A DNA stretch of 64,000 bases from Methylomonas sp. (GTDB lineage Bacteria; Pseudomonadota; Gammaproteobacteria; Methylococcales; Methylomonadaceae): NCBI GenBank assembly GCA_026988155.1, contig JALSLW010000083.1, positions 1 through 64,000 of the forward strand, given 5' to 3'. The stretch's first letter is position 1, and each line of letters begins with the position of its first letter. The translations under genes and the position numbers were made by a program. Positions 50,365 through 58,220 of the stretch are shown piece after piece. The notes below the pieces were generated by a model. The model searched no databases. It had not been told where the DNA came from and saw nothing but the letters and a program-made list of their open reading frames with translations.

Positions 50365-51144
50365 ATGACCTCAGAAACAAATAACTCAACTTTCAGCTCG
50401 GACTGGATAAACCTGCCCAGTCTTAACCTAACCGTGAAAAGCTTATTTACCAGCTATTTACTGGTCATTGGACTGGGCGCACTGCTTGCAAGTGCACAGA
50501 TATTAATGACTCATGGCATGGCCGACGGGAAGATTGGCTTATCTGTAGACGATATTGTATACAGCTATCATGGCGACCCTAAGCACAGCAAAATTGAAAT
50601 AAAACTTAATGGATCCATGAGTGACAAAGCATCCGCAGCTGACAAGTTAAAAATCATAAAATGGGTTAGAAATGGCGCGCCAGAAGAACAGTGGAACCAG
50701 CAGCTTAAAGAAGTTTTTTACAGCAACTGCATTTCATGTCATAGCACCATTCCCGGCTTACCTGATTTCACCCAATTTGAAGAAGTTAAACGTGTTGCAA
50801 AGTCAGAAAAGGGAGCGACTGCCAGCTCATTAACCCGGATTTCCCATATCCACATTTTTGCCATTTCTTTTATATTTTTCTTTAATGGCATGATATTCAG
50901 TCTATCTGTCGGCATAAAGCAAGGACTGAGAATATTTATAGTCAGCGCGCCCTTCTTTTTTCTTGCCATTGATGTTTTTTCCTGGTGGCTAACAAAAATC
51001 GTCCCTGAATTTGCTTGGCTTACCATTATTTCAGGGATAGGCTACAGCTTATGCGCTGCTATCACCTGGTTTGTATCTTTATATCAGATGTGGGTACTAC
51101 CCAGAAATGGCAAATCATACAAAGTTAACGCTTGGCAAAGTTAA
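50365..51144 (+). CDS. membrane protein with one c-type haem motif
   Basis: A 259-residue protein: a transmembrane helix at about 27-47, a periplasmic section (about 50-165) with one haem c motif CISCH (residues 122-126) followed by STIPGLPDFTQFEEV, and three to four helices from about 168 to 245. His residues at the edge of the second helix (RISHIHIFAISF) could ligate a b haem; that is inference. No known respiratory subunit matches. It follows dolP by 39 bases. A mono-haem membrane electron carrier is the safest description. Confidence 0.6.
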   Translation: MTSETNNSTFSSDWINLPSLNLTVKSLFTSYLLVIGLGALLASAQILMTHGMADGKIGLSVDDIVYSYHGDPKHSKIEIKLNGSMSDKASAADKLKIIKWVRNGAPEEQWNQQLKEVFYSNCISCHSTIPGLPDFTQFEEVKRVAKSEKGATASSLTRISHIHIFAISFIFFFNGMIFSLSVGIKQGLRIFIVSAPFFFLAIDVFSWWLTKIVPEFAWLTIISGIGYSLCAAITWFVSLYQMWVLPRNGKSYKVNAWQS

Positions 51145-53360: not shown

Positions 53361-54368
53361 ATGAAACATTATTTAACTTTTACACTGCTGTGTTTATTCA
53401 CTACTGGAAAACTGTTTGCCAGCATCCCGCAGCTATGGTTTTCCGACCAGCCCCCTGAGCGGTCAATGATTAAAAACATGCAAATGCGCCATGGGGGCTT
53501 TGTTCATGTTGTTGATGGGGTAGATGTTAAGCAGTTATGGCTGCGACAGGGCGATAGCCTGCATCAATCAGACTACTTAGGCTCTACTACAAAAGGCGAA
53601 TTTGTACTGATGGATGTGCAAAAAAACATCAATGCCCCACAAATTGAAAAGGCTAAACAGCAGTCTATCCGTTTTCCCATGCCTGATGAGGGTTTTTACA
53701 ATGCCTATTTTACAGAACGGTTAGTCAGTAATGACACGCTTGCGGTGATGACAGCTAAAGCTGAAATTCTCAAGCATAACTGCAGAAATGGACATAAATA
53801 CGACAGAAACCTAGTCAAGCCTCAGAAGTGGAGCGATGCGCCATTGGACATTGTTAGGCTTAGGGTGCCTAAAGAAGATTTTCACACCCGGATTCGTTCT
53901 GGTACAGAAGTAAAATTTCAGATTTTTCATCGGGGTAACCCTGTAAAAGGTGCCAATGTAAAACTGGAAACAAAAAAAGGCTGGGTTAAAACGACTCAAA
54001 GTGATGATCTGGGCTTCGCCAGCTTTCAGATTATTCAGGATAACTTTTTTGATGCCAAGAAAGCTGAAAAACAGGGTAAGAAAGTAGAACGCGGACATGG
54101 CGGGCGAATTCGCATCAGAGACAGCTATCTGGTGACAGCAGAATATCTGACTGATGAAACTGGCTCTCTGAATGATGCTCCCTTTAGCCAAACAGTCTAT
54201 AGAGTTTCAACAACAGGGCGATATTATCCGCAGCAGCTTGCCAGAAAGTCACCCGAACAGGCCCTATATTTTGCCAGTGCCGGAATGCTGGTGATGGGAG
54301 TGGGTGGCTATACCTATCGCAGAAGACGTGTTAAGCCATTTAAAGAGGAACAGTTTGATGAGCATTAA
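53361..54368 (+). CDS. exported beta-sandwich protein with C-terminal membrane anchor (DUF4198-like)
   Basis: A 335-residue protein preceded by CGGAG. Signal peptide MKHYLTFTLLCLFTTGKLFA; a periplasmic part with an Ig-like/carboxypeptidase-regulatory-type unit (GNPVKGANVKLETKKG then DDLGFASFQI, about 195-235); a C-terminal hydrophobic helix (about 303-320) followed by RRRRVKPF, so it is anchored with a cytoplasmic tail. The outline is that of DUF4198-like proteins, which often accompany metal or cofactor systems; I am not sure of the family. First gene of a five-gene operon; the next start lies inside its 3' end (11-base overlap). Confidence 0.6.
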   Translation: MKHYLTFTLLCLFTTGKLFASIPQLWFSDQPPERSMIKNMQMRHGGFVHVVDGVDVKQLWLRQGDSLHQSDYLGSTTKGEFVLMDVQKNINAPQIEKAKQQSIRFPMPDEGFYNAYFTERLVSNDTLAVMTAKAEILKHNCRNGHKYDRNLVKPQKWSDAPLDIVRLRVPKEDFHTRIRSGTEVKFQIFHRGNPVKGANVKLETKKGWVKTTQSDDLGFASFQIIQDNFFDAKKAEKQGKKVERGHGGRIRIRDSYLVTAEYLTDETGSLNDAPFSQTVYRVSTTGRYYPQQLARKSPEQALYFASAGMLVMGVGGYTYRRRRVKPFKEEQFDEH

Positions 54369-55329
54369 ATCTCGAATTGATCGAATAGATTTACGGCCTT
54401 TTCGTTTCTGGTTCCAGCTGGCGGCCTTTATTTTTCTGGTTTACGGCGGGCATTTAGCCATAGATTTAGGAAACAGCTTACCGACTTTTTCCTGTGGATA
54501 TAATCGTGACGGCACAGCAGGCACCTGTTACCTGCTGCCTTTGCAGCATCAATTGGCGCAGCCCTGGTCTCGATTATTTAGCCCAGCCGGATTAACGGTG
54601 TTAACTGGGTTTGGCCTATTCATCCTGTGGTTTATGGTGCTCAACAAAGCATGGTGCGGCTATGTCTGCCCCCTTGGCACCATTCAGGACTGGATAACAG
54701 GTCTGCGTAAAAGGTTAGGCATTCCCTACAGCAATTACAGTGACGATCATTTTAATAAGCTTAAATATATTAAATATTTTTTACTGCTGGCGTTAATTTT
54801 TATCCCGCTGGCAATAGGCGGACAGTTTCTATCTCATGACTGGGGTGTACCATTTTGTAAAATCTGCCCAGCCAGAATGATTATTCCCGCTTTTAATGGT
54901 GACTTTAGACAATGGGCCATTGATTTTTCCAATGATACAAAAATGTGGCTTACCGCATTAGGCATGTTTATTACAGGCCTTTTTCTAGTCGGCTCATTTA
55001 TAAAAAAACGCTTTTTCTGTTTTTTTTGTCCGATGAGCGCCTTCCATTTCATCTTTTCAAAACTGTCCATTTTAAAGCTAAAAAAAGACGGCTCAAAATG
55101 TACAGTTTGCGGAGACTGCTACCGAGTCTGTGATATGCAGATCAAACCCATAGCAGATGACATAGACAGTGTAGATATACTGCGGGATGACTGTATTTTA
55201 TGCTTAAAGTGTGTAGCGGCCTGCCCAGAAGAAGGGGCACTTAAAGTGGATATTTTAGGCAAAACAGTATTTGAAGCAACACGCGGCGGCTTTAATAAAC
55301 GAATGGGGATTGAAAAAAATGACAACTGA
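54358..55329 (+). CDS. NapH/CcoG-like membrane ferredoxin
   Basis: A 323-residue protein. The ATG at 54358 is chosen over one at 54304 because GAGGAA sits about nine bases before it. About five transmembrane helices carry Cys motifs on the loops: CGYVCPLGTIQDW, FCKICPAR and CFFCPMSAFHF, as in NapH, NosR and CcoG. The C-terminal 80 residues are a two-cluster ferredoxin domain: CTVCGDCYRVC and CILCLKCVAACPEEG. Such proteins move electrons between quinone and soluble or periplasmic partners. No nap, nos or cco genes are nearby; the partner here is probably the reductase in the next two genes. It overlaps the next gene by 11 bases. Confidence 0.82.
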   Translation: MSIKSRIDRIDLRPFRFWFQLAAFIFLVYGGHLAIDLGNSLPTFSCGYNRDGTAGTCYLLPLQHQLAQPWSRLFSPAGLTVLTGFGLFILWFMVLNKAWCGYVCPLGTIQDWITGLRKRLGIPYSNYSDDHFNKLKYIKYFLLLALIFIPLAIGGQFLSHDWGVPFCKICPARMIIPAFNGDFRQWAIDFSNDTKMWLTALGMFITGLFLVGSFIKKRFFCFFCPMSAFHFIFSKLSILKLKKDGSKCTVCGDCYRVCDMQIKPIADDIDSVDILRDDCILCLKCVAACPEEGALKVDILGKTVFEATRGGFNKRMGIEKNDN

Positions 55330-56608
55330 AACAAAAATAGAATTCAGAGAAATTGAAGATAGTCAGCAGCGCCATGTACGCCATCAAGGGATGGAGGCAA
55401 TGCAGGTACTGGATGTTATCGAAAAAGATTTTTCTGAAAACCCTAAAGCCATGCAGTATTTTTATGACTTATTCAGAGATGTTTATTGCAATGGCATAAA
55501 ACCCCATCCCGGTAAAGAAATGATCGGAACCATGTGTGTACAAGTACCTGATGAAATTATTTATGCGGCAGGTGGTGTCCCTGTACGGATGTGCAATGGT
55601 TTTTATACAGATGAAGAAGTTGGTGCAGAGTTTATGCCCGCTAAATCCTGTTCATTAGTCAAAGCATCGCTGGGAATGTTAAAAAGTAAAACTAATCCTT
55701 ATAGCGACGGCATTAAAACCATTGTAAACCCAACCACCTGCGACCAGAAGAAAAAATCTGCAGGCATTATGAAAGAAATGGGGTACAACGTTTATGATAT
55801 GGAACTGCCACCTGTAAAAGAGTCAGAAATCGGCAGGGAATATTGGCGACGCTCGGTAAGACAATTTACTAAAGAAGTCGGAAAAATCACGGGTAATAAA
55901 GTCACTAAAAAAGGCTTAAAGAAAACCATCTCTAAAATAGGTCGAGCACAAAATGCTTATCATCGATTAAACGAAGCGCGTAAATTAGTGCCCCTTCCCT
56001 TTTTGGGTAAAGATATGTTTATCGTTACCAATGCATTCTTTTTTGACGACATAGATCGCTGGACATTGGCAACTGAAAAGCTAGCGGATGAAATTGATCA
56101 ACGTGTAATTGATAAACATAACACGGCAGGAAAACGCTCACCCCGTATCGTTTTTACAGGCTCTCCTCCCGTATTCCCTAACTTAAAAGTTCCCTTAATG
56201 ATAGAACAGTCGGATGCAGTCATTGTTGCAGATGAAACCTGTTCTTCTAATAGACTATTAAATGACATGGTATCAGTGGATGAATGGTTTATGTACGATA
56301 TGGTGGATGCCGTAGCAGATCGCTATTTAAAATCCTGTACCTGCCCCATTTTTACCATGAATGACGATAGAATCCGCCGCTTGATAGAACTGGTTCGTTC
56401 ATCAAAAGCAGATGGTGTAATTTATCAAGCCTTTGCAGGCTGCGGCGTTTATGAAATGGAACAGCGCAGTGTGGCAAAGGCTATGGAAAAAGAAGGTATT
56501 CCGATGCTATATATAGAAACGGATTACAGTCCCAGCCAAGGCGGTCAATTATCAACAAGAATCGAAGCTTTTGTTGAATCATTAAAAGCAAGAAGCAGGA
56601 GGAAATAA
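55319..56608 (+). CDS. 2-hydroxyacyl-CoA-dehydratase-family protein, double-cubane type
   Basis: A 429-residue protein of the HgdB/BcrB family. The ATG at 55319 (MTTETKIEFR) is taken, since a longer frame reaches back into the ferredoxin gene with unlike residues. Nine Cys: 57, 73, 92, 111 (in PAKSCSLVKAS), 141 (NPTTCDQKKKS), 308 (ADETCSSNR), 340 and 342 (SCTCP) and 375 (AGCGVYEME). The dehydratases and benzoyl-CoA reductases use two unlike subunits of this family; here there is only one, next to one activator. That is the arrangement of double-cubane cluster proteins (DCCP), which carry an [8Fe-9S] cluster held by six Cys and reduce small molecules in an ATP-dependent way. The substrate is unknown. 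Confidence 0.78.
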   Translation: MTTETKIEFREIEDSQQRHVRHQGMEAMQVLDVIEKDFSENPKAMQYFYDLFRDVYCNGIKPHPGKEMIGTMCVQVPDEIIYAAGGVPVRMCNGFYTDEEVGAEFMPAKSCSLVKASLGMLKSKTNPYSDGIKTIVNPTTCDQKKKSAGIMKEMGYNVYDMELPPVKESEIGREYWRRSVRQFTKEVGKITGNKVTKKGLKKTISKIGRAQNAYHRLNEARKLVPLPFLGKDMFIVTNAFFFDDIDRWTLATEKLADEIDQRVIDKHNTAGKRSPRIVFTGSPPVFPNLKVPLMIEQSDAVIVADETCSSNRLLNDMVSVDEWFMYDMVDAVADRYLKSCTCPIFTMNDDRIRRLIELVRSSKADGVIYQAFAGCGVYEMEQRSVAKAMEKEGIPMLYIETDYSPSQGGQLSTRIEAFVESLKARSRRK

Positions 56609-57567
56609 TGGAATATTTTGCAGGTATTGATATAGGCTCAACCGCTGTCAAAGTGGCTGTAACCGATGAAGACAGACAGATTATCGGCAGTAAAGTGGCA
56701 AAAACGGGAGCTTTGGTTTATAAAAATGCACAAACTGCCTTTCTGTCGTTACTTGATGAAATTGGTTTAAAGAGAAAAGACATCATCTATTTAACCACCA
56801 CAGGGTATGGACGGAAACTATTTGAAGATGCTGATGAAACTATTAGTGAAATCACCGCCAATGCCATAGGTGCTAAACAGGTAGGAAAACCGTTTGGCAC
56901 CATCAGAACCATTATTAATATAGGCGGTCAGGATTCCAAAGCTATTAGTTTGGATGAAGATGGCAATGTCTCTAATTTTGCCATGAATGATCGCTGTGCT
57001 GCTGGTACAGGCCGGTTTTTAGATATGGCGGCACGAAATCTGGAAATTGAAGTAACCGATTTAGGTGAATTTCATCATAATGCCAAAAGTACACCAGCAG
57101 CTGTTAATGCGACTTGTGCAGTGTTTGCAGAATCTGAAATCATAGGATTGTTAGGCAAAGGACATGGGCGCGAAGAAATTGTCAAAGGCATTCATTTTTC
57201 AATCGCTAAACGGACGATTCGGTTAGTAAAGCGTGTTGGGCTGGAAGAACTGCTTTATTTTGATGGTGGGCCTGCACTTAATGAAGGCTTAGTCGCTTCA
57301 TTGGAAGATGAGCTGGGGAAACGGCTTGTTATTCCTGAATTTCCACAGGTAACTACTGCTTATGGAGCAGCCATTATCGGCCAAGAATCCTATCAATTTG
57401 AAAAAGAGGAAGATACTGAGACTGTGGAAGAGGCGTTATCAGCAGCACCTAAAGACAAAAGGAGCCTAAAGGAGATTTTATTAGGCAAGGCTCCTATTAT
57501 CCCCATTGCCCAAGAAAAACAGACCAGCAGTTGTGGAAGCAGTAGCTGTAGTAGTGGCTGCGAATGA
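56608..57567 (+). CDS. BcrA/HgdC-type ATPase activator (archerase)
   Basis: A 319-residue ASKHA-fold ATPase of the BadF/BadG/BcrA/BcrD family. Phosphate-1 FAGIDIGSTAVKVAV, phosphate-2 INIGGQDSKAI. The Cys that hold one [4Fe-4S] between two monomers are present: Cys130 in NDRCAAGTGRFLD and Cys170 in NATCAVFAESE. These activators fire single low-potential electrons into the partner protein with ATP hydrolysis. A C-terminal extension after about residue 265 is unusual and ends in SSCGSSSCSSGCE, three Cys that could bind a metal or another cluster. AGGAGG lies six bases upstream; ATG overlaps the previous stop by one base. Confidence 0.88.
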   Translation: MEYFAGIDIGSTAVKVAVTDEDRQIIGSKVAKTGALVYKNAQTAFLSLLDEIGLKRKDIIYLTTTGYGRKLFEDADETISEITANAIGAKQVGKPFGTIRTIINIGGQDSKAISLDEDGNVSNFAMNDRCAAGTGRFLDMAARNLEIEVTDLGEFHHNAKSTPAAVNATCAVFAESEIIGLLGKGHGREEIVKGIHFSIAKRTIRLVKRVGLEELLYFDGGPALNEGLVASLEDELGKRLVIPEFPQVTTAYGAAIIGQESYQFEKEEDTETVEEALSAAPKDKRSLKEILLGKAPIIPIAQEKQTSSCGSSSCSSGCE

Positions 57568-58220
57568 GTGAATATCTACTGAGTCTGCCCACCGTTTTTA
57601 TAATAGGGCTGGTTTTCGGTATAGGCCCTTGTACGATTACCTGTTTGCCCTATTTAGGCCCAGTTTTTTTGTCAAAAGAAGGTGGGATTAAAGATTCATG
57701 GAAAATAATCTTGCCTTTTTCTATGGGACGAATGAGCAGCTACAGTGCATTAGGTGCTTTATCTGGCTATGCAGGAGCTTCAATAGAAAAAATGATCCAT
57801 ACGCCACTGATTGCTTGGCTATTAGGGGGGGCTACAGTCTCCGTAGGGTTGCTAATTTTTTGGCGTTCCTACCGAAATAAATCAGCTTGCGGCTCACATC
57901 TGAATAAACACAAACTTCAAGACAACCCCTTTTTACCAAGCGGCTTATTTTTTATGGGCGTAGGTATGGCTGCAACCCCTTGCGCACCGCTTGTCACCGT
58001 TATGCTTACCGCCGCAGCCACTGCCAGTACTTTTTCTGGGTTTATGCTGGGGTTTTGTTTTGGTATTGGTGCGGTACTCGTTCCAGCCCTGGTATTCGGT
58101 ATTGGGATGGCTTATTTTGGCCAACGGATTAGGGACATAATGCAAGTTTGGCGGTCAACCCTGGAACGTGCAAGCGCCTGTTTATTAATCATTTTAGGTG
58201 TTGGGACAATTACAGGGTAG
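57564..58220 (+). CDS. CcdA/DsbD-like thiol electron transporter
   Basis: A 218-residue membrane protein with six predicted helices. The N-terminal helix holds GIGPCTITCLPYLGP (Cys23 and Cys27), and the fourth holds ATPCAPLVT (Cys140). Paired Cys in two helices, each next to Pro, are the mark of the DsbD-beta/CcdA group, which takes electrons from cytoplasmic thioredoxin to the outside; the DsbD_2 (UreH-like) subset has this short form. It could also be read as a TauE/SafE-like exporter, but the Cys favour thiol transfer. Its ATG overlaps the activator's stop by four bases. Confidence 0.7.
   Translation: MSEYLLSLPTVFIIGLVFGIGPCTITCLPYLGPVFLSKEGGIKDSWKIILPFSMGRMSSYSALGALSGYAGASIEKMIHTPLIAWLLGGATVSVGLLIFWRSYRNKSACGSHLNKHKLQDNPFLPSGLFFMGVGMAATPCAPLVTVMLTAAATASTFSGFMLGFCFGIGAVLVPALVFGIGMAYFGQRIRDIMQVWRSTLERASACLLIILGVGTITG

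Follow-up and report, generated by a model that had tools for sequence, protein, structure and literature searches.

A double-cubane cluster protein (DCCP) and its ATP-dependent activator appear to be built into a TonB-linked electron-transfer module of the cell envelope, of which we found no description. The module is encoded in a 64,000-base stretch of Methylomonas sp. DNA (the window), which forms the first 64,000 of the 146,507 bases of contig C83 in a 3.4-Mb genome (G000) that is 99.97% complete. Five genes, here called A to E, overlap in series on the forward strand at 53361–58220 (Table 1). All five are real, and the calls made in a first-pass annotation from the letters alone, with overlaps of 11, 11, 1 and 4 bases, were right. 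DCCP-type reductases are ATP-driven, distant analogues of nitrogenase. A DCCP and its activator use ATP to bring electrons to a very low potential, and the biological function of DCCPs was stated to be unknown in the literature of 2025 (PMC11971306). A full-text literature search returned no publication combining the present gene set.

Judged from sequence, C is a member of the DCCP family and D is its activator. C scored 360.2 bits with the curated double_cubane model NF040772, above the cut-off of 350, and less than 90 bits with the models for HadC, BzdN and BcrC, for which the cut-offs are 421–700. The nearest solved chains were those of the Carboxydothermus DCCP (7yyl/6eno; E-value 1e-68), with BzdN at 1e-18 and HadC at 5e-15. 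Pfam assigned HGD-D (PF06050) to C with 321 bits, and the whole genome holds only this one gene of the family and no second, unlike subunit. The layout proposed in the first-pass annotation, a single HGD-D-type subunit with its activator, thus stands. 2-Hydroxyacyl-CoA dehydratases and class I benzoyl-CoA reductases belong to the same superfamily and also have an ATP-driven activator, but they need two unlike subunits; assignment of C to these enzymes was rejected on the single HGD-D gene and on model scores far below cut-off. D scored above cut-off with both PF01869 (BcrAD_BadFG, 180 bits) and TIGR00241. The Cys130 and Cys170 of D, the pair expected between activator subunits, and the nine cysteines of C (57, 73, 92, 111, 141, 308, 340, 342 and 375) that had been listed earlier are present as described, and in an alignment of D that includes one truncated locus, Cys130 is found in 21/21 and Cys170 in 20/21 sequences. 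The D proteins of Methylococcales end in a short cysteine-rich stretch (57480–57567 in the window; also L002–L005 and L007), with tails such as CGSSSCSSGCE, CQGCSCG, CQGSCSSCG, CQSCTCD and CGACSCG.

The operon C proteins form a subfamily of their own. When 40 operon members were compared with 16 control DCCPs, Cys73, 111, 141, 308, 342 and 375 were present in all 56 sequences and Cys92 in 54, a measure of conservation only; these seven cysteines are common to operon members and controls. The Carboxydothermus DCCP (PDB 6ENO/7YYL) and YjiM/YjiL of E. coli likewise pair one HGD-D-type protein with a BcrA/HgdC-type activator and have the seven cysteines in common with C. In contrast, Cys340 occurs in 40/40 operon members and 0/16 controls, and Cys57 in 38/40 and 0/16, respectively. 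The double_cubane scores are also lower, 351–378 bits for the operon C proteins compared with 475–531 for typical DCCPs, including YjiM. A maximum-likelihood tree separates all 40 operon C proteins from the remaining sequences by a branch supported at 98/95, and the same branch is recovered (98/87) after addition of a 43%-identical C from another class of Pseudomonadota. By this tree, the operon C proteins are one branch, apart from the DCCPs that sit with an activator only. Unlike known DCCPs, they always occur together with a membrane iron-sulfur protein and a protein of the DUF4198 fold; a TonB receptor is usually encoded as well. The first-pass annotation regarded low-potential chemistry tied to the membrane as new in a probably aerobic gammaproteobacterium. 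A DCCP as such is not new there, given YjiM/YjiL of E. coli, whereas the coupling to the membrane and to TonB is. Three genomes (G702, G793 and G659) contain DCCP-like frames of 30–31% identity with one in-frame TAG each, which could be pseudogenes or could contain a read-through codon.

The gene order noted in the first-pass annotation is conserved across phyla. Outside the window, A-B-C was found at 40 loci; D is missing only from two second copies, E is nearly always present, and the A-B-C-D(-E) arrangement spans Pseudomonadota (Methylococcales and others), Campylobacterota and, in one genome, Bacteroidota. Of the 40 loci, 36 have a gene for a TonB-dependent receptor at a distance of no more than about 2 kb. 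Of the other four, one is at a contig edge, one has its receptor at about 6 kb and two showed none. Conversely, the 10–14 kb read at 14 control loci, which carry other HGD-D/DCCP genes, contained no A, B, E or receptor gene. The arrangement is thus beyond chance. The usual order is (ExbB-ExbD-)receptor-A-B-C-D-E in Pseudomonadota, receptor-A-B-C-D in Bacteroidota and receptor-(ExbB-ExbD-)E-A-B-C-D in most Campylobacterota; an annotated plasmid of Sulfurovum mangrovi has this last order. ExbB/ExbD genes are inside many of the clusters, and RND or MacAB-type pumps are found beside several. Second copies of the form receptor-A-B-C-E, lacking D, occur at L084 and L089, and the same genomes also hold a copy with D. 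The system is sporadic, being present in 5/151 genomes of the family and 5/369 of the class (the present genome counted in both), in 1/345 Bacteroidota and in about a tenth of 299 genomes in one order of Campylobacterota. In the C tree, the Methylococcales proteins group with those of Campylobacterota rather than with other Gammaproteobacteria (98/93 and 100/99), which suggests that horizontal transfer contributed to the history of C.

The membrane protein B combines familiar and unfamiliar features. Pfam detected Fer4_5 and ferredoxin domains, and the protein contains two cytoplasmic [4Fe-4S] ferredoxin motifs, CX3CP and CX2CP motifs and a Fer4_5 transmembrane region; hydropathy and a predicted model (predicted local distance difference test score, pLDDT, 74) gave four transmembrane helices. 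The four helices, the CX3CP motif and the two [4Fe-4S] motifs are shared with membrane ferredoxins of the NapH/NosR/PceC type, which serve extracytosolic electron transfer; NapH-like proteins move electrons across the membrane in a modular fashion (PMC8238504). However, the score with the curated NapH/MauN model, 78.7 bits, is far below the cut-off of 213. B has 16 cysteines, every one of which is present in 43/43 sequences; 12 of them match E. coli NapH, whereas Cys46, Cys57, Cys167, Cys170 and His64 do not. In the model, these four cysteines fall in two predicted periplasmic loops, on the face away from the ferredoxin domain; loop 38–58 is of low confidence. In E, which matched DsbD_2 with 81.4 bits (cut-off 24.9), Cys23, Cys27, Cys109 and Cys140 are present in 18/18 sequences. 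The four invariant cysteines of E and the four additional ones of B fit the earlier suggestion that this CcdA-like protein links the system to periplasmic thiols, short of proving it.

The identity of A emerged from its fold. Pfam gave a weak match to DUF4198, below cut-off (18.6 bits; gathering threshold 34), and a sequence search against solved chains gave no match, so that a fold search was needed. The predicted model (pLDDT 89; one plasmid-record row was excluded from the underlying alignment) matched Zcp, crystallized with Zn, Cu and Co, with a Z-score of 19.4 and the Ni-binding DUF4198 protein 9gcb with 16.0, and the next match reached only 6.0. A shares the fold of these proteins but has a C-terminal anchor helix and no conserved histidines; its tail, YRRRRxKPFKEVxFDE, is conserved. 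The A of Campylobacterota usually forms the C-terminal portion of a longer protein with a second Fer4_5 electron-transfer module, and in four loci (L011, L014, L093 and L096) a NosL domain is inserted in this Fer4_5-DUF4198 fusion. Gene neighborhoods of DUF4198 include TonB receptors and nickel regulators (PMC12537917), and clusters for extracytosolic iron reductases (PepSY) repeatedly feature DUF4198 proteins together with TonB receptors (PMC8238504).

The relationship between B and the DCCP is clarified by modules that lack the latter. In a sample of Pseudomonadota, B-like proteins with the same additional cysteines are encoded near TonB receptor genes, often together with A-like and E-like genes, and 19 of 20 tested genomes with such modules hold no DCCP. 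The DCCP-less B proteins keep the same sixteen cysteines, and the nine included in the B tree cluster apart from the C-associated proteins. In one family of another class of Pseudomonadota (L126, L127, L128 and L134), ExbB/ExbD-like genes are followed by the receptor and then by A-B-E in a genome without a DCCP; at L126, a Cys/His-rich protein of the LTXXQ family is encoded between the receptor and A-B-E. Furthermore, three loci of Campylobacterota (L090, L091 and L092) contain two A-B sets, with receptor genes between and beside them, and a single C-D-E (one outer A gene extends past the stretch read). One B at these loci is of the usual Campylobacterota type and the other is divergent. Taken together, the DCCP-less modules and the single C-D for two A-B sets indicate that the constant partner of B is the periplasmic side, that receptor-A-B(-E) is the constant unit and that C-D is probably an added power source. 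The same evidence speaks against the proposal in the first-pass annotation that B feeds electrons to the activator. Given the ATP-driven low potential of the family, the transmembrane passage known for NapH-like proteins and the optional nature of C-D, the most economical reading is that the direction is probably the reverse, with electrons passing from D by way of C and B into the periplasm.

We propose, as a leading reading to which we assign slightly less than an even chance, that the product of the operon is an electron pump, driven by ATP and running from the cytoplasm to the envelope, that is tied to TonB-dependent uptake and reduces an imported cargo, likely a metal chelate. D would hydrolyse ATP and inject electrons into the double-cubane cluster of C, a step that is established for the family and that we infer here. 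From C, the electrons, now at a very low potential, would pass to the ferredoxin domain that B has in the cytoplasm, and B would take them across the inner membrane to the four-cysteine site at its periplasmic face, where E would keep the thiols reduced. The membrane-anchored A would present cargo brought into the periplasm by the TonB-dependent receptor. Most likely, this cargo would be a chelate of ferric iron or another metal that resists reduction by NAD(P)H or quinol; it would be reduced in the periplasm and release its metal, and the neighboring RND/MacAB pumps could export the emptied chelator, by analogy with the recycling of pyoverdine. In this scheme, we infer the direction of the electrons, the contact between C and B and the identity of the cargo. 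The clusters for extracytosolic iron reduction of the PepSY/FpvG/VciB and P19 types also combine a TonB receptor with a secreted protein of the DUF4198 family and an electron carrier in the inner membrane (PMC8238504), but there the electrons come from NAD(P)H or quinol by way of PepSY, whereas we propose an ATP-driven double-cubane enzyme as the source and a NapH-like protein as the carrier. The wider claim, that these genes represent an undescribed class of envelope machine in which a nitrogenase-like double-cubane enzyme sends electrons of a potential far below that of NAD(P)H through a membrane iron-sulfur conduit to the periplasm, there to strip the metal from TonB-imported chelates, is more doubtful; we give it roughly a one-in-three standing.

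Several observations weigh against this proposal. No receptor adjoins the operon of the window, and for this reason the TonB link was missed in the first-pass annotation. In favor of the proposal, a cluster at about 81–94 kb on the same contig (L045/L046; 81.4–93.5 kb), outside the window and 23–35 kb from the operon, encodes a TonB receptor, a PepSY_TM protein, CobN/HmuS-like, MotA/ExbB-like and DUF2149-like proteins, an EF-hand-like protein and a sigma/anti-sigma-like pair, the latter recognised from size and sequence alone. The sister genome L002, too, has a receptor and PepSY_TM, there directly after E. Against the proposal, the operon receptors are of several types and match siderophore, heme, B12 and PQQ receptor models or solved structures generically and below cut-off, and the cargo may therefore not be a metal chelate. 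A search for Fur boxes in 28 regions upstream of first genes revealed no enrichment, and the operon contained no recognisable permease for ferrous iron or another metal. Finally, the alignment of A contains no invariant histidine or cysteine, and the N-terminal metal-ligand histidine of DUF4198 is not conserved, so metal binding through the known ligands is not supported.

The observations can also be read in other ways. B might draw electrons from quinol or the periplasm and feed them to D, with C reducing an imported small molecule in the cytosol, as would suit the known role of NapH-like proteins as quinol-linked electron carriers (PMC8238504). We consider this unlikely, since A, E and the receptor stay with B where C-D is absent, DCCP-activator pairs stand alone without any B, and the operon has no recognisable importer for the inner membrane. 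Moreover, quinol is far too oxidising to reduce the activator cluster unless energy is supplied, and we know of no energy coupling in NapH-type proteins. It is somewhat less probable still that C-D serves as a maturation or repair factor that activates or rebuilds an unusual cofactor in B or A, comparable to the reductive activators of corrinoid enzymes. The finding that one B clade occurs strictly together with C-D, the function of related B proteins without C-D and the novel cysteine set of B would agree with such a role, but the same sixteen cysteines are kept in DCCP-less B proteins, so the cofactor can evidently be made without C-D.

With respect to the cargo, a metal chelate leads, and heme or a corrinoid is a serious alternative for Methylococcales because of the CobN/HmuS-like neighbor. 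In several Methylococcales, CobN-like, MotA/ExbB-like and DUF2149 genes are located beside the operon, and in the present genome they are on the same contig; HmuS is a heme de-chelatase (PMC12583661), and some of the receptors resemble heme receptors, below cut-off. However, no CobN-like gene is found beside the operon in the loci of Campylobacterota, Bacteroidota and other Pseudomonadota examined, and for the system as a whole we regard a tetrapyrrole, reduced or de-metallated together with the chelatase, as improbable, on a par with the maturation role. Least likely of all is that the module reduces and delivers Cu(I). NosL domains in several A proteins of Campylobacterota, Met/His-rich segments in A and the copper bound by Zcp in the crystal might hint at copper, but Cu(II) is easily reduced and requires no ATP-driven low-potential donor. 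The NosL domain was seen only in some A proteins of Campylobacterota and not in that of the window, and for this reason we rate an exclusive role in copper handling low. Among the operon receptors scanned, there was no match to the copper-receptor model TIGR01778, and only one receptor, from a DCCP-less locus, matched it, far below cut-off.

Table 1. Genes A to E of the operon and selected elements within them (window positions).
Feature	Position	Strand	Description
A	53361..54368	+	335 aa; exported, periplasmic; C-terminal membrane anchor; DUF4198/Zcp fold (predicted)
B	54358..55329	+	323 aa; NapH-like membrane iron-sulfur protein
B periplasmic loop 1 (predicted)	54493..54528	+	Invariant Cys46 and Cys57, His64 just after; lacking in E. 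coli NapH
B periplasmic loop 2 (predicted)	54856..54867	+	Invariant Cys167 and Cys170; both lacking in E. coli NapH
C	55319..56608	+	429 aa; double-cubane-cluster-type reductase by sequence; HGD-D/PF06050, NCBIfam NF040772
C Cys340-Thr-Cys342	56336..56344	+	Cys342 in all DCCPs compared; Cys340 in the operon subfamily only
D	56608..57567	+	319 aa; ATP-dependent activator, BcrA/HgdC/YjiL family; Cys130/Cys170 pair, Cys-rich C-terminal tail
E	57564..58220	+	218 aa; CcdA/DsbD_2-like membrane protein; invariant Cys23, 27, 109 and 140

Elsewhere in the window, the frame at 50365–51144 encodes a membrane protein with a heme c-like motif, CISCH, and a marginal match to Haem_bd only.

The strict genetic link, across phyla, of a DCCP to a TonB receptor, a membrane iron-sulfur conduit with a new cysteine site and a metal-protein fold offers a concrete and testable answer to the question of DCCP function. 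If the proposal is true, DCCPs would gain a physiological role, and the module would be an extracytosolic reductase powered by ATP, and with it an ATP-powered route by which very low-potential electrons pass beyond the cytoplasm. The proposal would then also bear on metal acquisition in methanotrophs and in the Campylobacterota of vents and sediments.

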